The translations under genes and the position numbers were made by a program. The notes under the pieces were generated by a model, which made no database searches, was not told the origin of the DNA, and worked only from the letters and a program-made list of their open reading frames with translations. From NCBI GenBank assembly GCA_013054445.1, contig JAAMPI010000145.1:1-59820 (forward strand): a stretch of DNA of 59,820 bases, written 5' to 3'. Of this stretch, positions 10,230-55,700 are shown piece after piece. The stretch comes from Cudoniella acicularis (lineage: Eukaryota > Ascomycota > Leotiomycetes > Helotiales > Helotiaceae). Each line of letters opens with the position of its first letter. The stretch's first letter is position 1.

Positions 10230-12168
10230 ATGTTCTCTATTCAGGAATTAACTTCATTATCAATTGCCTACAGATACTCTTCTTTTCAAGTCTTGCTTTT
10301 GTTATGGGTAATTATCTTAACTATATTATATCGTCAAGTAACTGCCACCTCCAAGCCATACAGCCATTTCCCCCGCATAAACAGGCCCCTTTTGCCCTGG
10401 CCATGGGCTAAATCCACTTCGGATTCTCTTCAGGAAGGTTATTCCAAGGTGCGTCTCTCCTATGGCCGTATCTGTGTCAACATGATGACTGATTCTGGAG
10501 CTGGCAGATCCTTGCAACGAGGAAAAGCAAAGCCTTTACGATGCGATGGTGGGCGATGGATTACCTGGTCCTCTCTCCAGAATATCTCCCAGATTTAAAG
10601 ACTGCAGATGCAGAAAATGTCAGCTTTTTACAGAATCTCAGTGATGCGCTGCATATGGAAGCTTCTGCTGGCATCATTTATCATAGCCCAGATCGCATGA
10701 TACAGACGATTAAGAAAGGCCTCAATTCGCACTTGGGTAAACCATAAATCGAAACCCTCCGATAAAAAACGCCTGCTAACAATAGACCCGTGTGTTAAGC
10801 TCAAATAACACCCTTGCTCGCAGAAGAAGCAGACTTTGCTCTGATGTTTGAAATCGGCGAAGATTCGAACGGTTCGTGCCACCTTAGCTTGTTATTTTCC
10901 CTTCAGGTGTTTTATATGCACACTGTTTAATACTTTAGTAGGATGGAAAGAATTCAACGCGACCAAATTACTGTTTGGGGCGACCTACCGAATCGCCTGT
11001 CGTTTCTTCATCGCGAAAGAGCTTTCCGGCGACGAGAAATTGATCAAAACTTTAACTGCCTTCACAGAGTCTATCTTCATCAATGGATTAATAATTAAAA
11101 TGCTCCCACTTGGTCCTATTCGTGGCATACTAGCATGGCCAATCTCATTTTTCCATCGCCGCAAAATGGAGGCCGCTCTGGAAAGACTTCAACCGTTGGT
11201 TGAGCGACGAATTTCCTTATTTGCTGCTGACGATAGCAGTAGTATGAAGAAGTCACCCAATACAGAGCATTTTCTAGATGCTATTGACTGGATTTTAACA
11301 GCTTCTTCGGCACAACCCACACAGCAGGATTCAAGAATATTGGCCATAGAGATTTTACACAATTTCTGGGCTAGTTCGGGAAGTCCCAGTGCTTTGCTCA
11401 CCCAGATTGTCTTCCAGGTCCTGATGTTCCCTATGTATCTAGATCCTCTCAGAAAGGAGGTACAAGATGCTGTCTCTAAATATGGTTGGACTGAAAAAGC
11501 AGTCCAGAGTTTACCTTTACTAGACAGCTTCATTCGCGAAACAAATCGATTGTACCCTTCATTTTCTGGTAAGTCAGCTTGGTTTTTTTCTTGTAATATT
11601 TCAAACTCTACATTTTTACAATCATGCTAAAATATAAATTTACCACAGCAATCTGCTGTCGTACAGTGAAAGGGGAACCATGGCGACTCCATGATGGACT
11701 GGTTCTTCCCGTTGGTACACGCTGCATTTGGGCTGCCGATCCTTTATTACGCAACCCCAAGGCATTTGTTGATCCCTTAGTATTCGATGGGTTTAGGTTT
11801 GCACGTTTGGCTACTGATGACGAAAAACGTGAGGGGAAGGAAGATGGAAATTCTTCGGCTGCATCTTTTCTATCACCCACCAATCTTGCGTGAGTTCATC
11901 CCAAAATCTTTGTTAGAGTTGCCCGTTTTGGTTTTTGCATAAATAATAATTTCGTAGGTTCGGATATGGTCGACATGCATGTCCTGGTCGTTTCTATGCG
12001 TTGCGTAAAGTCAAAGTCTTGTTTGGAAAACTTATCCTTGGCTATGATATCGAATGGGACACGCCAAGAACCGAAAGACCCTCACCAGTGAGTGTTGAGG
12101 CACAGTTTGCCCCTAATCTTTGGCAGAAGATCCGCTTGCGCAGAAGACCAGTTCCAACAGAGGGTTGA
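10230..12168 (+). CDS. Cytochrome P450 monooxygenase (cluster P450 1)
   Basis: Six exons fit with consistent phases: 10230-10448, 10508-10736, 10800-10871, 10942-11568, 11649-11889 and 11958-12168, encoding 532 residues. An N-terminal membrane anchor (LLLLWVIILTILYR) is followed by a P450 fold. The ExxR motif of helix K is E373-T-N-R376, and the haem loop is FGYGRHACPGR with Cys471. The helix-I oxygen-activating region reads F315-W-A-S-S-G-S-P-S where family members usually have an acidic/alcohol pair, so the conserved Thr is replaced by Gly/Ser. The gene is ER-anchored and of the type common in fungal secondary metabolism. It converges on the second P450 (93 bp between stops) and lies about 2.7 kb from the UstYa gene, so a role in oxidising the cluster's peptide is a reasonable inference. 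The substrate is unknown. Confidence 0.9.
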
Positions 12169-12261
12169 GAATTTCGGGCAATGTTTGGAGAAAGAAGGAA
12201 ATCAAGGACTTTTTGTTTTTGGTTGAAAGTAGATTTTATTGATGGAAATGATTTCATACAC

Positions 12262-13854
12262 TTATTCAACAGGCTTAACCGCAATTTTCACACCATTCTT
12301 ACTCTCAACAGTCATTGTGATGACCTCGAAATACTCAAGAATCTCATCTCTATTCTCCAGCGTCTTGAATTCCTGTGCGAATCTAACCAACAAAAACGCC
12401 AATTGGGTCAGAACTTGGTTCTGGGCGGGGCACATTCGAATGCCTCCAAGAAACGGCTCATATTGCCATTTTGCTTCCCAAAGTGTTCGACCCGATTTGG
12501 TCCAGCGATCTGGTTTAAATTCGTCGGCGTCCTCGCCCCATATGCTTGTATCTCGTTGAACTGTGTAAAGATCCATTTCTACTACTATTCCTTTGGGTAC
12601 GAAGATTGGGGATTGACCATCTGGCCCACCTCCTTTTGGGAGAATACTGTCTCGCAATGATGTACGACCAATGCGGGAGGCAGCGGGATGCAGTCGAAGA
12701 GTTTCCTCGATGATTGCTTTCGTAAATTTCAACGAGTGTAAGAATTGGAAAGTCAAAGCCTGGTCTGGTTCAATTTTACTGACTTCTGTTCTGAGCTTCG
12801 TCCATTCGAGGGGGTGACGAGCGAGTTCGAATATTGCATCTGCGAATGCAATAGCGGCTGTGTCTCTAGCTGGGAAGAAAACATTAAGTATTTGCATCCG
12901 GAGATCGTACGGGTCCTGAGTTGTCTTGGTCATCTCTTCGAGAAGCACATATCTCTTTGAACCGGGGATTTCTTTCTCGGGCCTGCTTTTCTTTTCGAGA
13001 GCACGTTCCACATGCTTGTCTACGAACGCATGAACTTTGGTGTATGCTTTCTTCCAGTAGGGGTCGAGGTATAGGGGCCATCGAAAAGGGCCCGTTATCA
13101 GAAGTAATGCTAAGCCCAAGAGCGAACGATCGAACGCTTGCATGAATTCGTCCGTCTCGAAGTGCGGGTCTGGGTCGAGACATTCAGTGGATTCACCAAA
13201 GAGAAACTCAGTGGATGTGTCCAAGAACTAAGTAGACAAAAGTAAGCATATCAAAAAGGCTCGGGACATCCATTGATGACCACATACTAATTTTTTCGAC
13301 AGAGGCAATAAGTCGAATGTTGATCCATCTTTTGGAATCAAAGCTAGGAAACGAGCAACATGCCGATCGAAGTTCCCCAGGTCAGCAATCTCCGCTCGAC
13401 TGAAAGTTGGTCGAACAAGTGCTCTCGAATGCTTCCAGAACTCTCCATCCTCAGTGAAGATACCACGACCAAGAAATGGGGCACCAATGGTCCCTCTCAT
13501 AGGACCGACGCCAAATTCGTTAAAATTTGATGTGCAAATAGCCTGTATATTCTCAGGTTGTGAAGTTTGAAGTTCAAAGACCCCCAAGGATTTCATCAAA
13601 AATGTTGGGCCATATGTTTTATGAAGAGTCCTGTACGCTTCTGAACGGCACCCTGCAAAGTCTGCTTTGCGAATGTTAATGAAAGTGTCGAAGCCGAAAA
13701 CAGGATCCCAGCTTGACACTGTTGGAATTGGCTTGCACCCATGACGTTGCGCGGCCTCCGCTGAGAGCCTTTTTTTAGTCCAGGTGACAGTGAGGAGGTA
13801 AAAGGCATAAATTGCGACGAAGGTAGTACCGAGAAGAGTGAGTAGTGAAGACAT
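12262..13854 (-). CDS. Cytochrome P450 monooxygenase, CYP52/alkane-hydroxylase-like (cluster P450 2)
   Basis: Two exons, 13288-13854 and 12262-13227, are separated by a 60-bp intron and encode 510 residues. The ATG at 13854 precedes an N-terminal membrane helix (LLGTTFVAIYAFYLLTV). Characteristic CYP52-like blocks are FLDTSTEFLFGES after the splice, the helix-I motif A309-R-D-T312 in FFPARDTAAIAF, ExxR at E364-T-L-R367, and the haem loop FLGGIRMCPAQ with Cys455. The usual Gly two residues after the cysteine is Ala. CYP52-type enzymes hydroxylate fatty acids or alkanes, but relatives in clusters act on other substrates. The 3' end faces that of P450 1. Membership in the RiPP-type cluster is inferred from position only. 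Confidence 0.9.
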
Positions 13855-14894
13855 GGTCCGATGAAACTGGAGCTGGGGTCTTGAATCTCGACTATATGTT
13901 GAAGAAGTGTGTCTCTGATTAACTCGAACTCGATTGGTATAGATGCATTCAGTAACAGTGCCTGGTTTGAAAGTCTGTAAGTTAAAATGAAAAGGTAGGG
14001 ACGATAAACTTACGAACAGAAATGATAACTACAAATTCATGGGCTGGGGCTGTACCACATGCAGGATCTAGGATGGCTCGGATGGATGTCCGCCCGCTTT
14101 CATTCAGTAATATGTTCCCACCGACTGCCGGGTATGAGTCTGAGATCGGTGACTCAACAAGAATGTTGGCGTTTTGTTGGAATTTTAAAACCCTGGCACA
14201 TTTGTTGGAGTTAGGAGCGGATATTTATGCAGACCCTCGTGAGAAGCGGAAACGATGCTGACTGCGTTCTGCAGACTTACCTTGCGAAGAAGGGTAGTTA
14301 AGTGGCGTGATGCATTGTCACCCTGCAAATCAAAATGTATTGCTAACCAGGATATCATGCAAACTAGTGTACCGATACAGTGGTTCATGAGCTCCAATTC
14401 ATCCAGCCGAACACCACCTTCCCCTTCAACAAACCACCTCAAACTAATTAGATGCAATTAAATCATATCTTCCACGCTGCAATTTAGGAGGTTGGTTTTC
14501 TGAAGAATCTGAAGAACTGCCGGTGGCGCAGGCACGCACCAATGCAACACAGCATCCGGTGCTCGAATTGACGAGGGAACATAAGACACTGGCACAACGA
14601 ACATTAGAGGCAGCTTGTCTCTTTCATTGCAGCTTATGTTGGTGATAGTTGGTCCACTCGCATAATGCTCTTGCAAGCTTCACGTTTTCAGATTTCGGGC
14701 TTCGACTACCGCGCCTTTGACGTGTTGGCTAACCTTACTGTAGCAATAAGGCCACTAATTGAAAAACAAAAATATCCCTCGTAAAAGGAAGATTTCAAAG
14801 ATTTAATTTGTTAAAGCCCCGTACACTGCACACTTCAACTGCACTCTTGAACTACACTCTTGATCAATCCCCAAGCTTTGGAAAGATCACGATC
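13855..14894. other. Intergenic region with faint coding-like fragments
   Basis: Plus strand 14181-14261 reads NFKTLAHLLELGADIYADPR, which resembles one ankyrin-repeat unit, then stops. On the minus strand, coding-like stretches in changing frames occur at about 14670-14460 and 14170-14015 (for example YPAVGGNILLNESGRTSIRA), some bordered by plausible splice sites. I could not assemble either into a gene. The region should contain the promoters of P450 2 and the UstYa gene. Confidence 0.35.
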
Positions 14895-15808
14895 ATGGTT
14901 TTCGACCACTCAGAAAATCAGCCGTTTTTAGATGAAGACTCCAAAAAGACAAGCCTGGAGTATCATCCTGCATTGTACAAAACTTCTCCCACGAATAGCT
15001 GGCTGATCAACGCTCTTGCAATTATTGCTGTTACTTCTACCTTGGGCAATATTCTCTGGGCTTTCTACAATATCCGCACTCTTTCCAAGCCATTGAACAA
15101 TGAAAAGAGTCTCTATGCTGGGCTTGAGCGCGATGTGCCTACGCCCTTCAGAGATGATATGATATTCTCACCCAACAACCGTTCGCTATCAGATGCTGCG
15201 TGGGATAATTGGGTTGTGGACCCAGGCATTGTGGCTTTGCCTCATGATTGGGTCAAGGAAAATATGCTCCCCCGAGCTCAAAAATGGCCTTGGGATGGGG
15301 ACAAAGGCGTTTATCTTCTTAATGGGTTTCATAATCTTCATTGTCTAGTAAGTCGTTGCAAAAGCTGCTGAAATGTATCTATTTTATAGATAATTGCTGA
15401 CATGGATGATAGCAACTACTCCGCAAGACTATAATTAGTGCTGCTGAAGGAAGAGGAATTGAGGACGAGCATTACCTTGCCAAAGGCCTCGAGCACAATC
15501 TCCACTGTATCGAATCTCTCCGTCAAGACGCAATGTGTCATGCAGATGATACACCACGTTACTCAGGCTATTCGAAGAAACAAGCTTCTGGAGTTATGCA
15601 AACGCGCATGTGTCGAAGTTGGGATAAGCTTGAAGCTTGGGCTAGAGATCATACTGCTTGTTACCGTGATGTAGGCCGAGATGTTGAAGGATTTCCTATG
15701 ATCGAGAAGTTCAAGTTTTGTCCCCCTGGCTATGTTTTCTCTGCTACTGGCAGCCCGATAGCTCCATGGGATACTGGGTCGGGTATCTCTCATCCTGGGG
15801 ATGAGTAG
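14895..15808 (+). CDS. UstYa-family (DUF3328) oxidase of a RiPP-type cluster
   Basis: Two exons, 14895-15347 and 15413-15808, joined across a 65-bp intron (GTAAGT...GATAG), encode 282 residues. A short cytosolic N-terminus precedes one membrane helix at about residues 36-58, as in UstYa proteins. The family signature is present twice: H146-N-L-H-C150 in GFHNLHCL and H179-N-L-H-C183 in EHNLHCIESLRQ, followed by the conserved M-C-x-A-D (MCHADDTP) and a cysteine-rich C-terminus. UstYa/UstYb and relatives catalyse oxidative macrocyclisation or hydroxylation of core peptides in ustiloxin, phomopsin and asperipin biosynthesis, with metal bound by the HxxHC motifs. The gene is convergent with the repeat-bearing precursor gene 705 bp downstream. 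Both key motifs are intact, so I expect an active enzyme. Confidence 0.95.
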
Positions 15809-16512
15809 GGCCTGAAGGTTGAAGTGATGTAGTGCTTGATCTAGCATTAGTAGCTTGCAGGTAAATTTCATTATGTCAGTCTCTCAAAACTGATAACATT
15901 ATACTGATATTCCATTCAATATAAAATATTATACTTTGCATCAGAGAATAAATTTGGTCTCCACGCAGCATAAGTTTCCTCTAAATGTGGAAAAGGTTTC
16001 AATATTTGCTGGATTTTCCCGAAACCTCTTCTTCTAATGCGTTAACGTTGCGAAACCACAAAGAGCATTTCAAAATAATTAAATAACAATCAACTAAAAT
16101 AATCCCGCAATTAGCCAGAAAAAAAGAAGAAAAGATCGGGATTTATACCGAGTCCTTTTTAGCACATACGTATGTCAGTGTGGCGGTTATTCTTTGAAGT
16201 GTTTGTGGCAAGCTCTTGGCACGAGTAGTCGGATGTCCAGGCGATGTGCGCATTCATAAAGACTAATAGTGAATAATTCAAGTTTTTATGGCAAGCAAAC
16301 AGAGGGCCTTGAAGCATAAGTGAGTGGATTCTTCAAACTCAAGGCTATTTTTTAGACTTATAACACCACAATAACCCTAATTCCCGAGACCAGATGTCCT
16401 ATTCCCACTATCAATTGAAATCAAAGTTACGTTGTCATGAAAACTTATGAAGACACAAAATTCTGATTCCGGCGAAGGGTTTGCCCAAAATCCGCTTATG
16501 GCCTGCGTGTTC
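15809..16512. other. Spacer between convergent UstYa and precursor genes
   Basis: AT-rich, no reading frame of note; it should carry the 3' ends of both transcripts. Confidence 0.5.
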
Positions 16513-16840
16513 TTAGGCAGTACGCTCTTTGAAAAACCCTCCAAGGTAGTCTCCTGGAGCTTCCACCTCTGCAGGCTCTGCATCGCGCTTGAAGAAGCCG
16601 CCCAGGTAGTCGGTTGGAGCTTGCTCTTCTGTGTCGCGTTTGAAGAAGCCGCCTAGGTAATCGTCTGGAGCTTGCTCCTCTAATTGGTCAGTTAGCATGA
16701 TTTTGACCGGTTCATAAAATGAAATAGACTACAGAGAGTAGGGTGTTAAACGTACCAGATGGCACAGATGGCACAGGAACAGCGATCACTGCGATTGCCG
16801 AAGCGAAGAGGAGGGCAATGGATGTGGCGGAGAACTGCAT
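16513..16840 (-). CDS. Dikaritin-type RiPP precursor peptide with three DYLGGFF cores
   Basis: Two exons on the minus strand, 16756-16840 and 16513-16679, are joined across a 76-bp intron (GTACGT...AATTAG) and give 83 residues. Residues 1-20 (MQFSATSIALLFASAIAVIA) form a signal peptide. The mature part contains three near-identical units: residues 32-43 APDDYLGGFFKR, 49-60 APTDYLGGFFKR and 69-81 ending DYLGGFFKER, separated by acidic spacers rich in Glu and Asp. Lys-Arg after each of the first two units is a Kex2-like cleavage site. This architecture (signal peptide, repeated short core, KR sites, acidic spacers) matches UstA, PhomA and epichloecyclin precursors, and a UstYa gene is next door. 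The likely core is YLGGFF or DYLGGFF, with Tyr the probable crosslink donor. The third unit ends K-E-R and may not be cut normally. The function is inferred from architecture and context; the product is unknown. Confidence 0.92.
16522..16671 (-). repeat. In-gene core-peptide repeats of the RiPP precursor
   Basis: The DYLGGFF-coding blocks lie at 16642-16662, 16591-16611 and 16531-16551, with periods of 51 and 60 bp. Codons differ at several third positions between copies (for example CTA, CTG and CTT for Leu), while the heptapeptide is unchanged. That is the pattern expected if selection keeps the peptide. Confidence 0.9.
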
Positions 16841-18737
16841 TTTGAGTGCTTGAAGCTAGAGAAAATCGATTGATTTAGCTAGAAGAAGGTTAAGATTGTT
16901 TGGTAAAGAGGATTATACTTGAAAATTACCCTTTTCTTTCAAATACCAAGGCACTTGGACGGAGATGTGTGACAATCGAAGCTTTCGTGTGTCTTTGCTC
17001 TCAACTTGAGAGGGAACGGGAATCGGGATTGATCGAGGGTTCTTAATTGACTTCTATGTGTAAAATCTTTGATCGAGCATTTTTACATCTACCTCGACTT
17101 ACTCTAAAAGTTCACTGTTATACTACTATCCGATCCTGGGTTTGTTTGACGTCGAATATCCAACATTTTCCAATTTGGGGCTGAATTTCCAGGGTCACAC
17201 CCGGTGCACAGTGAGTTGGTGGCCTCACTTCTGCTTGCTACTCCCTCTCCTCTCTAGGAAGGTGGTTATGGCAAAGAGTGTTTGGAAGTATATCTCTTAC
17301 GTGGTGTTACACGTAGTACCAGGTACAATCAACTAGCGAATCTCCTCCACAGACCACCGGTTAAGACCTTTTAGAAAATCATTTGGCACATCCATTCTAC
17401 CAACCGCATTGCATATCTCAACCAACATTTATACCAAATCATGCCATAGACCAACAAAAAACATAGGGCCGGTTCTCGCTCACTGGGTCGCTCAGCTACA
17501 CTAGACTTTTGCGCAGCTCACTCTTCTGTGAAGCACTGACGGAGTACTCATTTCCTTCTGCGTAGGCCGCTTATTTATGAATTTGAAGTGAGTAAATAGG
17601 TAGTAAATTCATCTCGGTCACGTCACACATGAATAGCAGGAACAAAGCCGAACAAGGACTTAAGAAGGAAAGCTCAGGAAGATAAAATAATTGCAATAAG
17701 GGGGCGGCCGCTTTTCCCGATATCGATATGTGCGGCCTTTGTCAAATGTAAGCTTAGGTTACGGAATTCTGAATTCAGTGACCACTTTCACAACTGCCGT
17801 GAATGGTTGGGTCCAATATAGAATTGACTCCTTGCGTATATTAAATGCAAGCCTCTGCGGAGCAGACCGTCATGGGTCGGCCCGGCCGAAACGAAACCTG
17901 CCGGTTTGCGGAAAAAGTCCGGATAAATTCTCCGAAGGTGTTGCATCCGTTGAAGATTTTATGGAGCATGTCCTGTTTGTGCTGCGCCACAAGCTGACAG
18001 CTGATGTTGAAGATAGATTCAGAAAAGTTCAATTCGAAAGTCCCCTAGGTGAACAATGGATGATATGTTCCGGAACAATATGCATGAAGCCGGAGCGGCG
18101 GAGAGGCGTGGCATCTTCTCATTTTTTTCCCAACTGACCAATCATTATGGAACATCCTCAGCCACCAACAGAGACCAACTGTTGGCAATATTCTGCCCTA
18201 TACCTCGTCATACCGATGTCAGCAACTCACAACACCAACTGCAGCACCAAGCCGGCCTTTTTACAATTGCGACCCTATCCGTTCTGCATCTACAAGCAAT
18301 GTAACCCTGAACATGCCACACTGAAATGCCACGCGACACGAGACCAACAGCCATTTTCCTAAAGAATTTTGTCTCAATGCACGAAGATGACGATTCCCTG
18401 AAGAAAATAACAGAGCCAATTTCTTTCTCTCCTGCACGTTGCAAAGAAGAGATAACCTGTCATGTTCCGCTTGCATGCGCCTTATTACCCTTGTAGAGTG
18501 CAGGATGTTGCAACTTTCCATAACGCGCTTTCTTTTCTGATCTTGGTTGCCAGCCTTGCCTTCCCGCACAGGTTTGAAAGTTGGTAGACGTCCTTCTTCT
18601 CACGAGCTTTGATTAGAATTTCAGATCATAAACAACACTCAAACTTCTCTTGTCCATTCTTACAGATCTTACGTGTCTTTACGATACTAGAATACCACTT
18701 CAAGCTAATCAAGCCTTTGAGTTGTCCATTGATCATC
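16841..18737. other. Intergenic region upstream of the precursor and SAT4-like genes
   Basis: The minus-strand precursor's promoter should begin at 16841; the plus-strand membrane protein's promoter lies at the other end. Open frames here, such as a 135-codon one at 17730-18137, show no family motif and no consistent splice pattern. I see no zinc-cluster regulator gene. Confidence 0.45.
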
Positions 18738-20214
18738 ATGTCAACTACTTCAACTCAAGGAATCATAGCTTGCAACACAATATTACCCGTTCTTGGAATT
18801 GTTGTAGTTGGCCTCCGCTTCCATGTGCGTTCGACACAGAAAGTTGCCTTGAAAGTCGATGACTGGCTACAGATTCCAGCGCTTGTAAGCGTCCAAAGCG
18901 GCTTCCAATGAAACTCTCTTGACCTCTTCAGCTTCTCTTTGTTGGCATGGCCGTTACCGCTCTGTATGGTAAGTAAGCCAAACGTTGATTTATCTGAGGC
19001 TTCTGACAGACCATTTTAGGTGTCAAGCATCGTGCATTCGGCTATCCGACTCCAATTCAACCTCCCACGGAACCGGCTGATTCTCTCATCCTATGTGAAA
19101 AAGTATATTCACCCATATCTTCCCAGTGTGACTCTCGGGTCAAATGCTCACCGTCAAGTAGCTATGGTTTATCATACAACTGATTCAGATTTCCGCCTTG
19201 TCCATTATCAAAGTAGCTGCACTATTTTTCTATCGCCGTATCTTCGTTGCGTCAACACGAAGCAACATTCTGAACCGAATAATATGGATCCTTATGACCA
19301 TCATCTTTCTTTGGGGTATTGGGTTCACTGCCTTCTACATCGTTGCGTGCGGTTCTCATGTTCCAGCTGCTTGGTCCGGGTTTATAGGTTTTGCGACATA
19401 CTGCTTAGACACCGAGAAGTTCGAAGAAGCCTACGCAATTTCCGACTTCTTGATTGACACCTTTGTTCTTGCTATTCCATTACCATCAGTATGGAATATT
19501 CAAATCTCTTGAACTTGGAACTTCTCTTACTAATTAGTGTGTCTAGATCTGGTCTCTTCACATGGATGTCGTTCGCAAGATTAGTGTTACCTGTGTTTTC
19601 ATGTTTGCGTTAATGTAAGCAAATTTCAGTCTCTATTAAATTCTGTGTCCGCGCCGAACTTCTATAATAACCTTTCTCATAGTGGCTACGGAGCGCGATA
19701 GCCCGGCTTGTAACATTCGTACAAATTTCCAATAATTCACTAAGTACCGCACTACCAGACGTTCAAAGTATGTATTTTGTCTCTCATCGCTGCTGAAAAC
19801 CTACACTGACACTTTTCAGCCAACAATACCCAAGCTGTATGGTTCTCTTCACTTGAAACCGGATTCGCAATTTTCGCCCTAAACCTCCCATCTATCTGGC
19901 CTTTGCTTTCAAAAGTCTCAGTTGAGTCTATTGTCCGCAGTGTGCGCAGTATCGCCTCCTTAAATAGCAACTCCTCGAGGAACAGATCATATGGCGAGAT
20001 AAACACTGCAAAGTCTACGAAGAAGGATCTGAGTGCTGCGAACGACGATATTGAACTTGTCCCTCAGCGACAAGGCACACAATACAAAACCATGACTGAA
20101 GGTGATTGGCATAGTACCGAGGGATCTGCTTCACAACAGGATGTAGAACATGAAGGCGGTATCTACGTCAAGAAAAGCATAGAAGTGACATCCAGGAGTG
20201 GCCCAGGAGTGTAG
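18738..20214 (+). CDS. SAT4/Pth11-type rhodopsin-like seven-helix membrane protein
   Basis: Seven exons fit in phase: 18738-18884, 18932-18968, 19020-19102, 19162-19488, 19547-19614, 19694-19767 and 19820-20214, giving 376 residues. Fungal rhodopsin-domain landmarks are visible: the first helix (ACNTILPVLGIVVVGLRFHV) followed by KVDDWLQIPAL, SIIKVAALFFYRRIF in the central helices, a cysteine-bearing loop with YCLD, then ARLVTFVQISNNSLSTALPD and ETGFAIFALNLPSIWPLLSK at the last helix, and a hydrophilic C-terminal tail of about 100 residues. Exon 6 needs the acceptor ending GGAG at 19693; the nearer ATAG acceptor would cause a stop. Such proteins are often found in secondary-metabolite clusters and as Pth11-like receptors, but their biochemical role is mostly unknown. 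Its position between precursor and exporter suggests cluster membership. Confidence 0.85.
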
Positions 20215-21226
20215 GTTCTCATGGAAATCAGTCGCTCCAACCCTGAGCGGTACTTGGTCATTCGGTGCTCTTACCCAATTTTTTTGATCCATGAGAGGGC
20301 TTTGGGGCAACAAAGCGATACGTCCTGACTTCTATGAAAACATTTCGCTTTTTTGGAACTTGGGGTGGTGTATATTTCTAGATAATAAATTCTGCTGCCA
20401 AGTTTTATTTTTGAAGTGATAAGCCCAATGGGCCAATTGAAGCAACTATTTTATCTGAGACTTGGACTCTAACCAAGTGAAGAATGGTGGTCGCTATTGA
20501 GAAGGGAGGAAGTAAGCAGTGACATCTTTTTCCGGGTGCAGCGTTTAATACTCACGGTGCTTTATTTAGAATTTGTAAGAACGGTACCACATCCATTTTT
20601 GATTTCTGTATGATATCCTATTTTACTATTACTTCACCATTCATCTAGAGGAAAACAAAACAAGTTGATTCTCAATACCCACCCATGTAAGAATCACCTT
20701 ATTTCAAACGATTGTTGCTGTTGATACTCTGGCCGTTGACACGGGCAAGCATACGAGGTATCCAGCCAACTGGTTGAGGACCCCTGGCTAGAGAGGAATC
20801 TTTCTTGAACCTCGTATAAGCACATTATATTTGATACGAAGGGCCGAAGGCCAACTTGTACCCTGTTATCAACCGATTCAACGAACCACACCGAGTAGAC
20901 ATGCAATATAAAGTGCGGTTGGGGGGTTGCTAAGACCGGCACTCATGTGCAGATGCCCATGCATCTCGAGGCAGGGTGGTTATCCTTGTCGAGTTTGGGT
21001 CCGTAGGCTTTTTGTTCTCGGTTGGTTATTAAGTGATGCAACAAAAGTCACCAACATTCGTAATGCAACCGTTCACGTATCACTAATACAAACAACTAAA
21101 TCAGTACCACCTTCTAGTACTGGGGAGTTGTCCGCATTTTCTCGACTTCACCCTGGAGCCGCCTCCCCTTTGTTTTTCACACCCATAGGACGTGAGAATA
21201 AGGAATTTAGCAACACCATTTTCAAA
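20215..21226. other. Intergenic region before the MFS transporter gene
   Basis: No gene supported; the open frames lack family patterns. Expected to hold the terminator of the SAT4-like gene and the exporter promoter. Confidence 0.45.
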
Positions 21227-23361
21227 ATGCCAATCGTTGAAAAAAGTCTCGAAGAATTGAATGCCGGGAATGAGCAGATAGGAGACTCACCCACAGCTCC
21301 GCCACGGGAGCTAAGTGGCCTACCTGTAGGTTCCAGTGTTTTACTCCTAAATATTGACAAAGCTAACATGTATAGTGGGCTCTTGTAGTCACAGCCACAC
21401 TTGCCAGTATCCTCCTCTACTCTCTGGACAATACTATTGTTGCAAATATCATTCCAGTATGTCTCAAGTCCCCCACCAAAAATACCCACGAAATTTAACA
21501 AAGCTAACTCACTACTCGTCAATTGTCACGGACCTAAACAATACCACCGAGCTGCCATGGCTCTCCGTTGGGTAAGTTCGAAGAATTCCACGCTGAAAGC
21601 AGTCATAGTTGTCTTGAGCTAGAATAAACACCTTCTAGGTTCATGATAGGTGGGCTCTGTGTTGCTCTTCCATTCGGCAGACTCTACGGCCTCTTGGACA
21701 CCAGGTGGCTTTACTTAAGCTCCGTTCTCCTATTTATGACTGGATCTGCATTATGCGGAGCCGCTCCTAACATGTCGGCTATGATCGTGGGCCGTGTCCT
21801 TGCTGGAATGGGTGGTAATGGTATGAATACTGGCGTCAACACTTTATATGCAATGAATACTACGGAAAGGGAACGGCCCATGTACATGGCTCTGGTGTAA
21901 GTTATCCAAAATCAGCTACTAACTCTGTTTTGGTAGAAAATTTATTAACTTTTTGTAGCGGCTTGACGTATGGTATTGGTACGTTCGATTTCTGCTGGCA
22001 AAATTATCAACCAATTTCAAATACCTATTCTTACAAGACTAACAAATTATAAAATCAAGGTACAGTTATTGGTCCGATTGTGGGCGGTGCTTTCGCAGAC
22101 TCTTCCGCAACCTGGCGTTGGGGATTTTATATCAATCTCGTAATCGGCGGTGCCTTCGCTCCGGTATACCTCCTTCTTCTCCCCTCATCGAAAAGACAAC
22201 CAAACCAGCCATTTTTGGACCGCCTTCAATCCTTTGACTACGTTGGAACAATTCTTCAAGCTGGGTTTCTTGCTTGCGGAGTTATGGCTCTAAATTTCGG
22301 AGGCACTCTCTACTCCTGGTCGTCTGGACGAATAATCGCTATGTTCGTCATCGCTAGCATTCTTCTGCTCGGATTTTCAGTGCAACAGAGTCTTCTGGTA
22401 TTTACTAAACAAGAGACACGCGTCTTTCCTGTGCAATTCTTGAAAATTACAGAGCCTGTTTGTTGTTTCATTCTCATGGCTTCTTGCAGTAGTGGCACGT
22501 TCTTGGTCATGTATTACATCCCGCTCTATTTTCAGTTTGCGAGAGGAGTCACCTCTTTGAGCTCAGGCGTCAACATTCTTCCATTTATTGTCACTACTAC
22601 TGCTGCCATCATGATAAATGGAGCTGTTTTGTCTAAGAATGGGTTTTATAAACCTTGGTACGTTTGTGGGAGTGCACTCGCACTTATTGGAGGGGCTCTT
22701 ATATGTAAGTTGATCGCCAGGTTCAGCATTCTCTATCGAATTAAATAAAATATCTGATAAATTCCTCTAGCTCGCATAGACCTTGACACCCCGAATGCGA
22801 AGGTCTATGGCTTCGAGGTTCTTCTCGGCATTGGTTTCGGCAGCTGGCTTCAATCTTCATACTCCGTCATCCAGTCGGCCATAGACCCCAGTGAAATTGT
22901 TTACGCGGTTACATTCATTGTTTTCAGTGAGTAAAATCTAGAAGAGCCTCTGAAAACAATAATTATCAGGGAAAAGACTAACGAAGGGTGAAAGGTCAAC
23001 TCCTCGGTCTTGCTATTTCTTTGTCAATAGCCGGCGCAATATTCGTGAATACATCCCTCCAAGGACTTGAAAATATCCTGCCCAATGTACCAGTCACACA
23101 ACTTCAATTAGCTATTTCCGGAGCGAGTGGTAATTTTTTTGCGACATTGGATCCAACCCTGCAGAGACCCTGTTTGGAAGTCATAGTCTCCTCATTACAA
23201 AAAGTGTGAGTGATTTAACCCATGAATATTCTACTCGTAGAAAAGCTACATATGACGGCTCTCTGACTACGAGAACTAGGTATATTCTTATCTACGTTGC
23301 CGCCGCTGTGGGCCTCGTATGTTCGATTTTTCTTTCTGTAAGTTTGACTACTGGTTTTTGA
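21227..23361 (+). CDS. MFS drug/toxin exporter, DHA2 (14-helix) type
   Basis: Nine exons fit in phase: 21227-21325, 21376-21456, 21504-21571, 21639-21896, 21959-21978, 22060-22704, 22771-22926, 22995-23205 and 23280-23361, encoding 539 residues. The first helix carries the DHA2 motif LYSLDNTIVANIIP. The loop 2-3 motif appears as GRLYGLLDTRWLYL, helix 4 as IVGRVLAGMGGNGMNTG, and motif C as GIGTVIGPIVGGAF. Further helices follow to a hydrophobic C-terminus. The 20-bp fifth exon is required to keep frame. The acceptor before exon 3 (CAAAG, 21503) introduces six residues not usual in the family, so this boundary is the least certain. Members of this group include cluster-encoded efflux pumps such as AflT-like transporters; here it probably exports the cyclised peptide and protects the producer (inference from context). 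Confidence 0.88.
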
Positions 23362-23962: not shown

Positions 23963-26404
23963 ATGGAAGCCTTAGCGGCAGCATCCAGCATCTTCTCCGT
24001 CGTGTCGCTCGCCCTCCAACTCGCCACCACGGTCCAAAATATCATCGACTTCTGGGAGTCGATGAAAGATGCACCTGTAGAAATTCAAGAGATCAGAGCG
24101 CATCTCAAGGTGCTGAGTACACTTTTGCGAAGTATTGAGAATGATGCTCCGTCTTCGGCGATTATTGATGCTTCGGATGTGGCGCAAAGCTGCCTCGGAA
24201 TTTGTGCTGCGAGGATTACGAAGCTTGAAATTCTGACAAAAGAGTTTGGTAAGGGTTTGAATGGCAACGGTGTTCAGCGGAAATGGACGGGGTTGAAAAA
24301 GGTTTTAAGAGAAAAGAAGCTGGCTGTCTATTGGGGAGAGCTGGAACGCGCAAAGAGTACGATGATTTTGTATCAGACATTGAGCCAAGGGTGAGACACG
24401 AGACCCAATTGTATAGCACATTGCTGACTGAGTCTTAACAGTCAAAAACAAGACAACATGCTGCTCTTGATGAGGCAGATGTCTAGGCAAAATGATCTAC
24501 CAGGTTTTCATTCCATCCAAAATCTCCTATACGACGAGCTGAGTCTCCAATCCAAAAATGACAAGCTTACGAGTGCTCGCATAAGATCGCATACTTATGA
24601 TCTCCGTTTGTCATTCGGTGTAATCCGCTGCAAGTCCTTGACGAATATAACCAAAGAGAAATTCTCAAAATCCGGCATTACCGGAATTAATCGGGGCCTG
24701 CGACACAAAATTGTGAAGGCATACTTTTTGCCAAATTTTTCCAGGTTCCCCTTCGTTCTTATTTGGACCATCCAAAATCACTGTGGATCATTTTCCAGCG
24801 GCCTTCAAGCATTGCACATACGCCCACACTGGTCACCAATTTTCGAATTCGCCGCAAAAGGAGATATACAAAACGTCAAAATATTATTTGAGGAAGATCA
24901 AGCGTCACCCAACGACGTCGATCCAGATGGGTGGACTGTATTGCATGTGAGACCCCCCTTCAGATCATTTTCCCCATTTATCAGGTTGATCCTAAGCTTT
25001 TGACGTAGCATGCTGCCGCCGGTCACCATGCCGCTATGTGTTGTATGCTTATTAAACTAGGAGCAAGAGCTGATTGCGTAACGACGAAACATCACGAAAC
25101 CCCACTATTGCTTTGTACTGGATGGGAAAGTTGGAGTTCTCATGTTGTGGAGCATGAATCCGGTAGTGACCAGAATGCAATTTTGGAGACCGTGCAAGTT
25201 CTTGTAGAACAAGGAAGAAACGATCCTATGGAGGTGGATTGGGATGGTCTCAATTCGGTTATGAGATCGGGGCTCAGCAACAGGAGGACTTGCATCTCCT
25301 GGCTTTTGCATCAAGACGAATTTGAGGTTGATGTGAATTATGCCCTCCCTGGGGGATACACTGTTGGTGCATGCATTGCAACTCGCGATGACCTCTTGCA
25401 AGCCCTTTTAATATCGCTATTACGAAAGGGAATAAGAGTTGACGAACCTTGCGCAGAAATCTGGTATTCTAGCTATGCCTCTCACATCATAATCAAAGGT
25501 ATGAGGACTTTCTAATTTTATCCTATATGCATCGTGGACTTTAAACTAAGTCAACAACCAAGAACCGTCGATGCTTCACTTTGCAGTTTGGATGTGGCAT
25601 TACAGATTTTGCAGGGGGCAGGACGACTTTGAAATACTAGGGGTCGAGAATTTGGTTCAAAGATCTAATTTCTCAGCACCACGAGGTTTTTTGAGAGCTC
25701 TCGTGGAGCTTGGTGCCAGTATGCACTCAATGTCAAGCTCAGGCCACACAATTTTAGACGGGATTTTACTCGACATCGTACACCGGAATGGGAAACCATA
25801 TCCATCGGACGTTCTTAGCTTATGCATGGGAAACTGGCTTAACCTTCTTCAAGATGTGGGAATCGATAGCAAAGAGTATGTTCGTAAGGAGAGGGAGCTT
25901 CACAAAAACAAAGTGCTAGAACTCGGTCTCGGAATCAAGATGGAAGCTCGCTTCAGCGAGGAAACAGAACCGCCGTACATATGGAGAGTGTTCCAAGGGC
26001 ACGAAGAAAGAGAGAAAGGCGAGTTTGTCGACCATATATCAAAATGTGCTGACTTCGAAAAATGGCGACAGATGAAGCCGCCGCCACCCCTTCCAAAATC
26101 TGCGACTCTCCTGGCGAACAATCAAGAAATGGTTGCCAACAAAGAGGCGGCGAAGTCTCGGGGAGGTGACCAAGCATTCCACCAAACGAACACGGTTAAT
26201 GCAAATCGCAATACATCGCCAAAATCGGTTGCTGAGGAGTGTTGCACAATACTGAGGAGTGTTGGCTATGCAACTCGATATCGCCATGAGTTCTCAGCCT
26301 ATGTGGCTGCCTCAGCTTTATTCCTTGGCTGCCAATTGTTGACTTCGGCTCGGATCACGCTTTGTTTCTACCTGACTTTGTACTTCATCAAAGGTTTTGT
26401 GTGA
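23963..26404 (+). CDS. Ankyrin-repeat protein with fungal STAND-type N-terminal domain
   Basis: Four exons, 23963-24390, 24442-24946, 25009-25498 and 25563-26404, give 754 residues in continuous frame. Residues 1-140 (MEALAAASSIFSVVSLALQL ... VQNIIDFWESMKDAP) match the helical N-terminal domain that precedes NACHT or ankyrin modules in many fungal STAND-like proteins. A linker is followed by ankyrin units around FEFAAKGDIQNVKILFEED, WTVLHHAAAAGHHAAMCCML and IKLGARAD (restored by the 62-bp intron), with later degenerate units (LRALVELGASMHSMSSSGHT). No P-loop NTPase lies between the two parts, so it is not a complete STAND receptor. The C-terminus ends with a hydrophobic segment (residues about 730-752). 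Roles of such proteins in self/non-self recognition are suggested for relatives only. It borders the RiPP-type cluster; whether it belongs is unclear. Confidence 0.8.
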
Positions 26405-29251
26405 TAGTGATGCGACTTCAGTCGACTCACCAAGGAAAGAAGTCTTTTCGAAAGGCATGAAATTTACGGAAAGACACGAGAAAGACCGGCAGCCACCAGA
26501 AGTTATGATTGTTTCTCATTCAGGTGCGCGGCAGATTCGGGGAATCAAAGCACTTGTCAACCCATCGCAAATTTCTACATCTTAATATCAGTCTTGAGAG
26601 CTTTGTGTTACGTGGACTGTTAAGTACGGGAAGAGGATCCAGTTTCTTCGAGAACCTCCTCGTGAGTTCGAGAAAAAAAGGGGGGCTCACATGACGAAAA
26701 CGAAAGCTTCTGGGAAACTTTTCTGACAGCATGCAACTGCAACTTAGGAACAAGTCACTGACCGCTCCCAAGACAAGATTCAAGAGAAAAGCCTCAAGAA
26801 AATGGAGAGTTACAGCCTCACCGTGGCGGCGAGTTGGCAACCCCGCCTTACTTTTCGACTGCTGCAGCGCCCCTCACTCGAACACGTTCCCTAACTCTGC
26901 TCCAACCACCAAGCGGCGACTGGCCGTGTATCAGGTGTCTGCGCATGAGACCCAAAATCACGTGGAACGTATAACTTCACCTCCACCAAGCTTGACACGG
27001 ACCTGGTAACGATCTCGGCTGCAGCTGCATCTGAATCTCGAAGCAGAAATGTCCTATCCGATTGGGGTTCACCGACCTTGGTTCCGTCATGATCACCCTA
27101 CTCTGGGGCTAGGTGAGGGAGATTCGCCGAAAGAAGTGCGTGAATTGGAATGATAGTAGAGGTGATAGAAAGTATGGGGATATGGGAAATAATTTGAACG
27201 AATTATATCCCGCCCCAAGCTCAAGCCGAAAGAAAGGTCCTTGCTTTCGAGTCCTTCCCCTGAACTCGGGCCCGTGGGATTTTCTGATCAGGGCAGGCCA
27301 GGCCAGCCCTTTCCAAAGCTCCCACCGCATAATAAAATGATTCGTCTCATGTACCAGCCCTCCTGCACCGAAGAGTGCAAAATAAGCCACAAATCCCACG
27401 CCCTACCACGGATCAAGGACCGGTCTCTTACCCCTGAGCGGGAGGCTCGTCCAGTGAATGTGAGACTGGACGTTGAGACATGCATTCGGGGCAAAGCTGC
27501 AGCTAGGGTCTTGCTGCAGGTCGCTAGGTTGGTACTGGGCTATAAGGTGCAACGATCCGCGTAGCTGGTTAGGGTGGTGGTCTCTGTGTTACCGTTTGTG
27601 GTCGTGCAACGTGCCGCATTTGGCGTGCTGGGCAGAGCCAGAGGGCGAGAGAGATCGGATGAGGCAAGCTGAGGCGGTGGGAGACGATATCCGGGTGGTA
27701 GTTGTGGGCTGGACTGTTTTGGGGTCGATGAAACAGGTGAGCTGGTTGGGTGGGGCAAGAACATATGGGAAAGATGACATGGGGTGTAGTCGTTGCGGTG
27801 CGGGGATGAGGTCGCGTGGCTCTTGTTCAACAAGACCACAATGTGTGAAGAAGCACGTGGCGGCTCATGATCACCATCATGCGGAGGCAACACCGGAAGA
27901 TTCCCACGCCTTTCCAAATCCCAAGTCGATCTCAGGTAGCAGCACATCCATCCTGCGCCCAGAGCGGTCAGCGCTGCAGCAAGGGGACAGCAGGTCCTCC
28001 TACAATAGGTCGGTTTGCCAGGGAAGCCGTCACCGTCAGGCAGTCCGAGCTCGGCTGGCACTGCAGCTACCCGTCGGTTTGCTCTGCCAGAAACGTCGGT
28101 TCATGCCCAGCATCTCCAGCACGCCAAGAAGCAAGACCGGCAGCTTTAAACCTGAGACAAGCGAACCCGTTCATTAACATATCTACGCCGCGCTCCTGGC
28201 CTTAGACACGTGCAGCGGAACTGGTGATACGGTATAGCCGCCTTCGCCCCGGCGTCTGGCGCTGAAGCCTCATGTTGCACTGGCCACACGGGGGGTCGCC
28301 AAGGCTCCAAAAAGGAGTATTGAGATATATGAAAGCCATCCAAAAGATGATTCATAGCTTTTTCATAGTGGTGGTTGTGGTTGAAGAGGTTGGGCCGTGT
28401 TGACTAGCGACGGGAGGCTTGAACAAACCCGTCACTTGTCTAGGGCTCGAGATTAAAAGGCGAGTGTAATGGCAAGCAAGACGAAGCGCTTGATAGCAAT
28501 TCCGGTGCGGAGGAGGGAGCACGGCCTCTTCCGGCAGTGCTTCCTTCTTCGGTACCTCTAGAAGACCATGGTATGAAGCGCTCTTCCAGTAAGTATCACA
28601 CGGACTCGCCTGCTATTGTGGATCGCGTTCTTCTGAACAGCAATCATAAGAGTCTATTGTAACCACAAACTTTTGGCAATGTGAAAACAATTCGTTCTTG
28701 ATCCTAAGCATTCCGCATCATTGTTGATACCCGAATACCTCTTGTTCATACTAGAAGATCATAAGTTGGTTCCGCAAGTTCTTTCCATAATCTGATCCCA
28801 AGAAACTGATTTGTATTGAAGGTGAGAATCAAAATTCTCCTCTCCGCTGGCGGTGTAGAAGGTAGACAACGATAGGATGAGGTTCGTTGCTGTCACAGAA
28901 AATAATTGGAGTATCTCGTTCGGTCAAAGAAGCTCTGCATGTTCTTCGCCTTGCGAATGCCAAGTGGGTCCTGCCTCGACCAGCCAGTCGCCGCGTAGCT
29001 CTTTCGAAGACGAGGAGACGATTCTGGATTTTCCTCGCATCCACCAGTGCCCAATCCCAAGACTCTGACCGCCATTAGGACAAGTACTGTTTGAGGGCAT
29101 TATTGCCGCATTGCATCTGCTGACGGATGATGTTTACAGGCACCTTGCTTCTGGACTACGTCTGGCGTTGTTCGATTAGAAGCAGAAGGATTAGGATTTC
29201 GCAAACCCACATCGGCCCTGAAACAGGAGGGCGGTGAGGTTCTACGCGGCC
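26405..29251. other. Long intergenic region, partly GC-rich
   Basis: No gene could be supported in 2.8 kb. The section 27450-28300 is GC-rich and open in several frames on both strands (a 234-codon frame at 27473-28177, a 173-codon frame opposite it), but the translations are biased in composition and show no motif. The right end includes the 5' region of the Myb-like gene, with a possible leader containing short upstream ORFs. Confidence 0.45.
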
Positions 29252-52700: not shown

Positions 52701-55700
52701 TCACCCCTTCTTCGCCTTCTTATTACCCTTCTCACCCCCCTTGCTCTTCCTCCTCTCCTCCTCCTCCCTCTTCCTCTTCACCGTCGCCGTACTGGCCCTG
52801 GTCCCCGCGCGCTTACTCCTCCTCTCCCCATCCTCCTCCACGTAGCTCGAATCCACACTCCCCTGACTCCCCGTTCCTTTCTTTCCAAAAGCTCCTCTGC
52901 AAACTTAAATCCTGCTTTCTTTGACCATTGCGAGGCTGAGAGTGCGGNCGAGGCGTTGTTGNTGNTGNNTTGCGTGGTTTGCGGGTTGCGGCTTGTTGAT
53001 GCTTTTTGCGGGCTTGCCAGGTTTCTGCTCGGCCTGGTGTGGGGGGTGCTTGTTAGCTTTTTTTCTTGTTGTGCTTGGCTTTGGGGAGTTGGAAGGGGAG
53101 GGGAGAGAATGGAGGAAGAAAGGAAGGCATACAAAGGCGCAGTTCTGCTTGCAAATTGCTAATTTGCCATTCCAGGGAACGGATCAAGTCTCGAAGTTTC
53201 TTATTTTCATCAGAACTTTTACCTTTACCAGAGCTATCACCTATAGCATTCAGCTGCGCCTGCGTGTTGGCGATGGTTTGGTTGAGGGCTTCGATATCGG
53301 CAATTAGGCTGTCGTTTTCGGTTGTGAGTTCTTCGATGCGTTGGTTTGCTTCCTCGAGAGTCTTGGGTTCTTTAGGCGCTGGGCCGACGTCCTCATCCTC
53401 GCTCTCGTTTTCATTTTCATCGTCAACATCAGCCATCGTATCCTCAAGCATCAGGGTTGTATTATCTTCGTTGTCGCCGGTGGCAGCGGGGGTGTAAACG
53501 ACGGGGCTGTTATCTTCGTCGCCGAGACCGCGGATACGGCCATCGCTGAGAAGGGCATTGAAAGCCCTCTGAAGACGCCTTAAATCTTGAATGACATTTC
53601 GAATGCCAATTGAAACAGGAGTTTCAGGGGTCCCACCATGCTCTTCCTCAGAAATTGGCTCCTTGGAGAAGCTGTACTGGTTGTAGAAATCTTCCACGTT
53701 CGCACTTTCGAGATCGGCGAATCTCTCTGCGAGGTTGTCGACTTGTTCTCGGAGGGCTTCGACCTGTCTGTTACGGATATCGTCATTTGATGAAGCATTT
53801 TCTTGAAGCTGTGTCTCGAGTCTCGAAATTTGTGCCTTGAGCGCTGCCTTTTCTTTCTCGCAATTTTTCTTGGCTTCTGTAAATTGCTTAGAGAGCTTTA
53901 GCATTTTCTTGTCAAGGTCTTGCTTTTGCTCATCAAGCCTTTTCTTTTCCTTTTCGAAGTTCTCTTCGGCCTCTTTAAGCTCCCTTTGGAGAGCAGCAAC
54001 TCTGGCATCAGTGTCATTTTCATCGGCCTCTGCGTTGCTATCTTCTAGGGACTCCTCGGTATCTTTTTGTTCCGCATCGTTGGCTTGTTGAATGAAATCG
54101 TGGATGCGAGTACGGTAAGTTTGAATTCTCGCACTGAGCACTTCCTTTTCTTTGTCGCATTTTTCCTTGGCCTCTTTAAGCTGCCTTTGGAGGGCAGCTA
54201 CCATATTGTTGTTGTTATCGGCGTCAGCATCGTCGTGGTCAGCATTATCGTCGTCAAGCCCGACTCTGGTGATAGCTTCTTCCGCGTCCTTAAGCTGGTC
54301 GTCCGCGGCCTGAAGCCGGTTCTCGAGGTCATCAATGATGTCACGGTAGTTCTCAATTTCTGTCTCATCTTTTTCGCGGAGATCCTGTAACCGCTGGAGC
54401 TCCTTGTTATATTTGTCTCTGAGCTCGTTATGGATCTTTCTCTTTTCCCTGTCACAATCATCTTCAGCGCGTTGAAGTTGGCTTTGGAGACTGGCAATTT
54501 GGCGAAGATACGCGTCTACATCCTTCGCCAGTCGTTTTTCGGTCTGCCGCGGGTCAGGTCCCCGAGCTTCTTCAAGCTGTTTCTCGAGCTCGCGGATCCG
54601 GGCTTCAAGAACCGTCGTTTTCTCCTTGCAATTATCTTGAGCATCTTTAAGTCGCTGTTTGAGGTCTGTAGTTGCCTTCACAGGATCGAACGTCGGCTGA
54701 GGCCCCTGGGCTGCGACTACCCCTATGGAATTTGGGTCAGTGGTCAATAAAATCCCGCCTCGCGCATCTTCGCCAGCAGTGATATTCCACCATGAGAGTT
54801 GTTGTAAAAGTTCATCTTCTCTTACTTCCTGCTCTCTGAATAACGTCCTCAGTCGTTCAAGTTCAATCTGAGTGCGTCTCAAAACTCCTTGAAGGTGCGT
54901 CATTTCTTCATCCCGATTTAATTCTCCATTCCATGCCCGCTTGATCATAGTCATGTCATGGTATTGCTTCTTTGCTTCCTCCACAGTTGGATCCCCTCTA
55001 CCCTCAGCATGCCTCAAGGTTAGATCTTCACATTGATCACTTATTTGCTCCAGACGGCCTTCGAAGGAAGTTGCAAAAGCTTCAAACTGATCCCTAAGTT
55101 GTTGATATAGTTGATTGGTTATTGTTTTGGATTTCTCTTTCGCCGGTTTGAGGGACTGGCTGTCTCTAGCTGAGTCCACATCGTCCGAATCGTCCCCAAA
55201 ACGTTTTTCAAAAGCGTCGTCATCTTTCAGTCTATTCGCGTACTGAGATTCTGCAGCCATGTGGGTTGCAAGATCCTGTAATTGACGTCGAAGTTCCAGC
55301 ATATCAACATCTTCGCGTGAGGCAGACGCTACAAGATTTTCGACCAGAAGATGTGCGTCTTGCCAGTCCGCGCAGTAGGCTTGATAATTCTCTACCGACA
55401 TACCGCGAGCAAGGAATTGTAAGGTTACCCCAAAGGCGTTAAGCTTATTATCCACAGTAACTAACATAGCAACTAATTCCCTCGGCGCTCTATCCACGCT
55501 GCTCATTGCTCGTCTTAATTTTTCAAATATCTCCACTATCTCTTTAATGTTTCTCAATGTCGTGTTAAAGTCGTCTGGAACTGGTATGATTTTGACAACC
55601 GCTCGTCGGAGCCTTTCATTATCACTTGCAGCCCTTTGCAATTCCTTGAAATTGTCGTTCGGGATATCATTAAGGCGCTTCAGCACAGCATCAATATCGC

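Follow-up and report, generated by a model that had tools for sequence, protein, structure and literature searches.

The window analysed here is a stretch of 59,820 nucleotides that makes up one whole contig (C500) of the 53.2-Mb genome assembly of Cudoniella acicularis, an ascomycete of the order Helotiales. Within it, a gene for a small repeat-bearing peptide precursor lies next to a gene of the UstYa family (DUF3328, PF11807). The arrangement is of a known kind, because it matches the one reported in the survey of Umemura 2020 (PMC7329392). Judging from sequence, the pair likely makes a further ustiloxin-type cyclic peptide, whose structure is here a predicted one.

The precursor gene is located on the reverse strand at 16513..16840 and encodes 83 residues in two exons (16756-16840 and 16513-16679), separated in the regional gene model by a single GT-AG intron of 76 bp between positions 16756 and 16679. 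The model is identical to the NCBI hypothetical protein G7Y89_g3061 of C. acicularis. Its N-terminus is signal-like, with a mean hydropathy of up to 2.76 per 11 residues, as judged by hydropathy only. Three YLGGFF cores lie on the same strand at 16642..16659 (copy 1, context APDDYLGGFFKRD), 16591..16608 (copy 2, context APTDYLGGFFKRD) and 16531..16548 (copy 3, context APGDYLGGFFKERTA), and all three units read DYLGGFFK. The first-pass annotation of this DNA had described a secreted precursor of 83 residues with three DYLGGFF units; the annotated protein bears out the length, and the three copies bear out the units. The Kex2-like KR sites that it also described are found behind copies 1 and 2 but not behind copy 3, which reads FFKERTA and then stops. 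When repeats were defined as at least three Kex2-delimited units of at least eight residues, the precursor showed three copies and two KR sites, with the last copy ending the protein.

The precursor has no Pfam match and no paralog in the C. acicularis genome at E ≤ 10. A genome-wide search for YLGGFF codons returned the three copies of the window and a fourth one on contig C232, which was set aside as a single, out-of-context copy whose reading frame is unrelated. We also scanned stop-free frames for any pentapeptide occurring at least three times across dibasic sites. This gave one array in the window and none outside positions 10231-23361, the rest of the window serving as a natural non-UstYa control. 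Dinucleotide shuffles replaced a reversed-sequence control, which had given 4 matches since reversed repeats remain repeats. The repeats of the precursor are not due to chance: three such shuffles of all 296 kb examined contained no array, and the differences between the DYLGGFFK copies are only synonymous, with no fewer than seven base changes, each in the third position of a codon, spread over six of the eight codons. Under random single changes, the probability of such an all-silent outcome would be about 2e-5, according to a simple null that ignores mutation bias.

The UstYa-family gene (14895..15808, forward strand; exons 14895-15347 and 15413-15808) is the gene model next to the precursor, and the stop codons of the two genes face each other with 704 bp between them. 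It encodes 282 residues, matches PF11807 with 95.3 bits (cut-off 25) and has one predicted transmembrane stretch, the single hydrophobic segment at residues 36-54. It carries two HNLHC motifs, at residues 146-150 (15330..15344, forward strand) and 179-183 (15494..15508, forward strand), in agreement with the earlier description of a UstYa gene with both HxxHC motifs 705 bp away from the precursor. In an alignment of 58 proteins (the window UstYa and 57 relatives chosen among the 120 listed), H146, H149, C150, H179, H182 and C183 are invariant, as are C193, C218, C234 and C254. No other UstYa gene was matched on the contig, the two matches being the two exons of this one.

The characterized UstYa-family hydroxylase CctR, which acts in cyclochlorotine synthesis, forms a homodimer anchored in the membrane; two copper ions are bound by its HxxHC(x)nHxxHC signature, and the enzyme attacks sp3 C-H bonds with the help of O2 (PMC12435403). 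The C. acicularis protein shares with CctR the enzyme family, this signature and the transmembrane anchor; the binuclear copper site was demonstrated for CctR. The pairing of the motifs on helices comes from a structure model of a relative, P0002, and not of the window protein (57 sequences; mean predicted local distance difference test score 70, predicted template modelling score 0.59). In this model the motifs, at 147-151 and 181-185, are placed on adjacent helices (144-164 and 173-196) that follow a helix at 33-60, which is the arrangement described for CctR (PMC12435403). No solved structure related in sequence to the window UstYa was found at E ≤ 1. Among its relatives, P0002-P0005 show 59-72% identity and include one from a Dirinaria lichen assembly. 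A search of viral contigs with exon 1 of the window UstYa as the sole query gave 32 stretches, none of which was confirmed.

A second precursor with the same core

Searched against 5.8 billion proteins, the 83-residue precursor retrieved only itself (two candidates). A lengthened artificial probe of its repeats retrieved one protein, P0122 (E = 6.5e-7, among the 7996 candidates scored, those with the most words in common), which in a direct BLASTP comparison matches the window precursor with E = 6e-15. P0122 is 112 residues long and has three copies of YLGGFF, in the contexts ...NAPENYLGGFFKRD..., ...GAPEDYLGGFFKR... and ...KAPETYLGGFF; the corresponding AP-framed cores are APENYLGGFFKRD, APEDYLGGFFKR and APETYLGGFF. 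The spacers of the two precursors are otherwise unlike, in length as well as in sequence.

Across the six copies of the two precursors, A at -4, P at -3 and the whole of YLGGFF are invariant (6/6, including the Tyr and the Gly at core position 3), and a Lys follows in 5/5. The residue preceding the Tyr is D in four copies, N in one and T in one. By this comparison the conserved core is YLGGFF, and DYLGGFF is ruled out as the core because the residue ahead of the Tyr varies; of the DYLGGFF core first put forward, the YLGGFF part is thus conserved in P0122 and the leading D is not. The upstream APxx is likely a recognition frame. Conservation of the repeats in relatives, which had been proposed as a check, is observed in P0122, the sole relative found. 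A scan of viral contigs with a GGFFKR(D/E) DNA pattern gave 48 stretches with one match each.

P0122 is found on a single contig of 5,078 bp in ENA. A relative of the window UstYa, P0007 (72% identical over 56% of the window protein), is also found on a single ENA contig of 5,078 bp. Because the two lengths are equal, the genes for P0122 and P0007 probably share one contig and are hence linked.

Within the literature searched (main texts), the YLGGFF core appears to be new. Among 5.39 million papers, the sole match to YLGGFF is listed as a human amyloid study. The main-text portions of three surveys (PMC12048977, PMC7329392 and PMC6339444) contain neither YLGG nor YLG, and GGF is likewise absent from that of PMC7329392. 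The sole match in the literature on the C. acicularis genome concerns mating pheromones. Precursors of this kind change fast: most of the types in the Umemura survey were found in one genus only (PMC7329392), and in a survey of lichens most clusters for ribosomally synthesized and post-translationally modified peptides (RiPPs) were singletons, its two conserved clans showing no repeat precursor (PMC12048977).

Neighbouring genes and other UstYa loci in the genome

On one side of the pair lie two P450 genes. P450b (12262..13854, reverse strand; 510 residues; exons 13288-13854 and 12262-13227; PF00067) is a probable tailoring oxidase, and P450a (10231..12168, forward strand; about 526 residues; PF00067) has a hand-placed N-terminal exon and C-terminus. 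On the other side are a probable accessory gene for a fungal rhodopsin-domain (SAT4-like) membrane protein (18738..20214, forward strand; PF20684; an approximate model with several introns) and a possible exporter of the MFS family (21227..23361, forward strand; PF07690; an approximate hand-built model). The protein queries for P450a, the rhodopsin-like protein and the transporter were put together by hand from exons; P450b, UstYa and the precursor are regional gene models. Two P450s, a SAT4-like protein and a DHA2 exporter had been proposed here, and the domains (PF00067 twice, PF20684 and MFS_1) are indeed present. The DHA2 label is plausible but not established, because the best NCBIfam match of the transporter, DHA2/EmrB, scores 100.8 bits, far under the model cut-off of 230.2.

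Which of these genes belong with the pair was assessed from the 121 UstYa matches in the genome, which merge into approximately 89 gene loci on 62 contigs, window included. With the window excluded, loci merged from the matches listed were counted if they lay no more than 7 kb from UstYa, and the counts were compared to a binomial expectation, a test that treats loci as independent and takes no account of regions rich in secondary metabolism. Among the matches listed, 11 of 141 rhodopsin-domain loci fall within this distance (2.2 expected; P = 1.7e-5), as do 6 of 59 P450b paralog loci (0.93 expected; P = 3.4e-4) and 0 of 32 P450a paralog loci (0.5 expected). Because P450b and the rhodopsin-like gene are of types enriched near UstYa loci genome-wide, they are probable cluster members; P450a and the transporter are neighbours only, their membership resting on adjacency.

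Some observations weigh against this extended cluster. The 7-kb limit was chosen after the distances had been seen. With a limit of 5 kb, P is 0.0018 (rhodopsin, among the matches listed) and 0.0059 (P450b); with one of 10 kb it is 1.8e-4 (among the matches listed) and 0.0014, respectively. Of the top 15 P450b paralog loci, only 3 are no farther than 7 kb from UstYa, and one more (C368) is 13 kb off. Finally, the 6.4 kb read of a sister locus on C1710 contain no repeat array, although UstYa, rhodopsin and P450b are all matched there. The precursor and UstYa could be a two-gene unit flanked by four unrelated genes (those for the two P450s, the rhodopsin-like protein and the transporter), a reading that we regard as unlikely, albeit the strongest of the alternatives. 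It would accord with the four-gene asperipin-2a cluster, which has no P450 (PMC6514808), with the finding that none of the P450a paralogs comes as close as 10 kb to other UstYa loci (0/32), and with the absence of a visible precursor beside the P450b and rhodopsin genes of C1710. However, P450b-type and rhodopsin genes occur within 7 kb of UstYa more often than the binomial expectation. At C1710:11500-17900 (L051), the UstYa, rhodopsin-domain and P450b-type matches all lie within 5 kb.

None of the 48 tyrosinase matches in the genome lies on C500, which is in line with the first-pass description of a cluster devoid of tyrosinase, nor does any of the 10 matches to the S41 peptidase; no Zn2Cys6 regulator was found on C500 among the 150 of 332 candidates scored. 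Elsewhere in the genome, tyrosinase-domain matches occur about 1.3-4.7 kb from UstYa loci on C1370, C1124 and C1160, which may be ustiloxin/phomopsin-type clusters.

Repeat arrays were also sought beside other UstYa loci, in a sample of 22 of the 62 UstYa contigs, taken besides the window in descending order of the strength of their UstYa matches and covering 39 of the 89 loci. Ten of the 22 carry a Kex2-type array, 0.6-2.2 kb from the nearest UstYa match and each with a different unit: L025:3396-3896 (C279), L011:4029-4523 (C40, unit ADDGNYYYYGEAKR), L032:2254-2586 (C801, unit NEADVDSIQWKR), L038:1277-1585 (C1520, unit DEDLAKYGKR), L040:2563-2934 (C336), L041:3220-3399 (C1603), L043:8161-8454 (C368), L048:2271-2588 (C788, unit AELDGDLYNYKEKR), L021:2828-3145 (C681) and L033:2636-3511 (C107, unit HHTEAQIAAKKAKA). 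The last is doubtful as a precursor because the dibasic site falls within its unit. A first and a looser version of the repeat scan agree, save for the C681 array, which the looser one missed. No array was seen on C1710 and C1542, each read in part. Contig C279 (L024, L025) holds a dense UstYa cluster, with seven UstYa loci on both strands around the DGPSIAIPWTKNYGEYEEKR array within 17 kb.

The remainder of the window, outside the cluster, holds ordinary genes, among them those for a sulfate permease, an ankyrin protein, an Ap4A phosphorylase, a glutaminase and Sec39. A multi-exon protein with ankyrin repeats lies directly downstream of the transporter (23963-26900, forward strand) and has a weak, sub-cut-off SesA-like N-terminal domain. 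A very long coiled-coil-like frame of 927 residues (53056-55836, reverse strand) matches only FlxA in Pfam, with 25.6 bits against a cut-off of 26.3.

Likeness to known fungal peptide systems

The architecture had initially been likened to the ustiloxin, phomopsin and epichloecyclin systems. With one UstYa gene and no tyrosinase, it is closer to the asperipin-2a system of Aspergillus flavus (aprA/aprY/aprT/aprR), which by sequence is the best architectural match. The two share a repeat precursor with Kex2 sites and a signal (signal-like by hydropathy in C. acicularis), a single UstYa oxidase, a hexapeptide core with Tyr, a transporter, and the lack of a tyrosinase, which is not among the four asperipin-2a genes (PMC6514808, PMC7329392); at the C. 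acicularis locus the transporter is counted by adjacency only. They differ in that the asperipin-2a core, FYYTGY, has several Tyr whereas YLGGFF has one, and in that asperipin-2a has an isoflavone-reductase gene and no P450 whereas the C. acicularis locus has two P450s and a rhodopsin-like protein nearby.

With ustiloxin B and phomopsin, the locus shares a KR-cut repeat precursor, UstYa-type oxidases and a Tyr opening the core, and with ustiloxin also a P450. In contrast to its single UstYa and the absence of a tyrosinase match on the contig, these systems have two or five UstYa genes plus a tyrosinase, and the cores of ustiloxin are flanked by ED and KR. Ustiloxin and phomopsin have Tyr1 joined to an internal Ile (PMC9233826), whereas YLGGFF has Gly at position 3. 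Membership of the ustiloxin/phomopsin subclass was accordingly rejected, on the single UstYa, the lack of tyrosinase on C500 and the Gly at Tyr+2. The earlier assignment to the dikaritin-type RiPPs is supported in the broad sense, though not for the ustiloxin/phomopsin subclass, by the precursor/UstYa pair, by the same core in P0122, on whose contig a close UstYa is apparently encoded as well, and by the intact copper motifs.

To our knowledge, the cores of victorin and of the epichloecyclins differ from YLGGFF. Both systems share Kex2-processed multi-core precursors with C. acicularis; victorin is chlorinated (PMC9233826) and the epichloecyclins carry methylated Lys (PMC6514808). CctR acts on a non-ribosomal peptide, which it hydroxylates, whereas the C. 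acicularis substrate is predicted to be a ribosomal precursor (PMC12435403). The broadest comparison is provided by the Umemura survey, in which 1758 of 7878 Kex2 repeat proteins have DUF3328 genes near, most often adjacent, the same genetic arrangement as here (PMC7329392).

Proposed product and alternatives

We consider it fairly probable, from sequence and by analogy with the systems above, that the precursor is secreted, that Kex2 cuts it after KR, and that UstYa cross-links its YLGGFF cores into a cyclic peptide. If UstYa works like CctR, a pair of copper ions would be bound by its four His and two Cys inside the lumen of the Golgi, where activation of O2 would remove a hydrogen from an sp3 carbon (PMC12435403). 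In the asperipin-2a system, AprY is essential and is the proposed maker of the Tyr ether links to beta-carbons (PMC6514808), which suggests that a single UstYa may suffice to form a bond between the phenol oxygen of Tyr and a beta-carbon. Since Gly3 and Gly4 have no beta-carbon, an ether of this type would have to close on Phe5, Phe6 or Leu2, and the Tyr-to-residue-3 ring of ustiloxin and phomopsin would be excluded; a Tyr-Phe or Tyr-Leu link is, by this analogy, the more likely. Our tentative preference goes to Phe5 or Phe6, else Leu2. P450b would oxidise the ring after closure, and the rhodopsin-like and MFS proteins may assist or export.

Several points weigh against this proposal. Other reactions of the UstYa family include hydroxylation, chlorination and transacylation, so that family membership alone does not imply a cross-link. 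The third YLGGFF copy has no KR; P0122 was missed with the plain 83-residue query and surfaced only with the lengthened artificial one; the linkage of P0122 with P0007 is deduced from the shared figure of 5,078 bp; and a single-frame scan detected no array on 12 of the 22 UstYa contigs in the sample.

The main rival to a Tyr ether is a victorin-like link between a Phe side chain and Leu2; more generally, UstYa might modify YLGGFF without forming a bond to the Tyr oxygen, either through this link or by mere hydroxylation or desaturation of a linear peptide. In victorin, ring closure links the Phe at the C-terminus with a Leu inside the peptide (PMC9233826); YLGGFF likewise has a terminal Phe, and its second residue is Leu. 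The UstYa relative CctR acts as a hydroxylase (PMC12435403). On the other side, the Tyr is invariant in all six copies, although the Leu and both Phe are equally so, and in the Umemura survey Tyr is present in 65.6% of the repeats beside DUF3328 genes as compared to 38.2% of those without (PMC7329392). Overall, modification without a Tyr-oxygen bond seems to us unlikely, marginally more so than the two-gene unit discussed above.

It is clearly less probable that the precursor is a plain Kex2 repeat protein giving a linear, signalling or hormone-like peptide, with an unrelated UstYa gene beside it. Most Kex2-repeat proteins, 6120 of 7878, do have no DUF3328 gene within their 15 nearest neighbours (PMC7329392), and the spacer ahead of copy 3 starts with D-A-E-P, which retains traces of an X-Ala/X-Pro (STE13) run. 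However, the UstYa gene adjoins the precursor in the window, and the second precursor seems to share its contig with a UstYa of 72% identity. The other copies have no regular X-Ala/X-Pro run up to the core, a mark of hormone-like repeat proteins (PMC6339444). A pheromone or hormone precursor was rejected for lack of a regular STE13-type run. That the repeats are a functionless accident of translation is hardly credible, given that change between copies is synonymous only, that the spliced model equals the public annotation, and that the core is kept in a second precursor with diverged spacers.

Beyond a cyclic peptide made by UstYa, a bolder and more tentative proposal, possible but in our view on the doubtful side, is that the locus represents a subclass of its own. 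In it, a copper UstYa would read APxx-YLGGFF-KR and bond the phenol of Tyr with the beta-carbon of a Phe over the Gly-Gly hinge, giving a ring beyond the ustiloxin/phomopsin geometry, and the UstYa-associated P450 lineage and the rhodopsin-like protein would form a recurrent tool kit, applied within a single fungus to many different precursors.

The retention of the core between two precursors whose spacers diverge is direct evidence of what the product is, and such conservation is useful because these precursors change fast. The APxxYLGGFFKR frame also offers a compact substrate on which a copper UstYa can be tested, a single Tyr having no more than three candidate partners in it. More broadly, the genome of C. 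acicularis is rich in precursors, with approximately 89 UstYa loci and 10 further repeat precursors beside UstYa in the sampled part.

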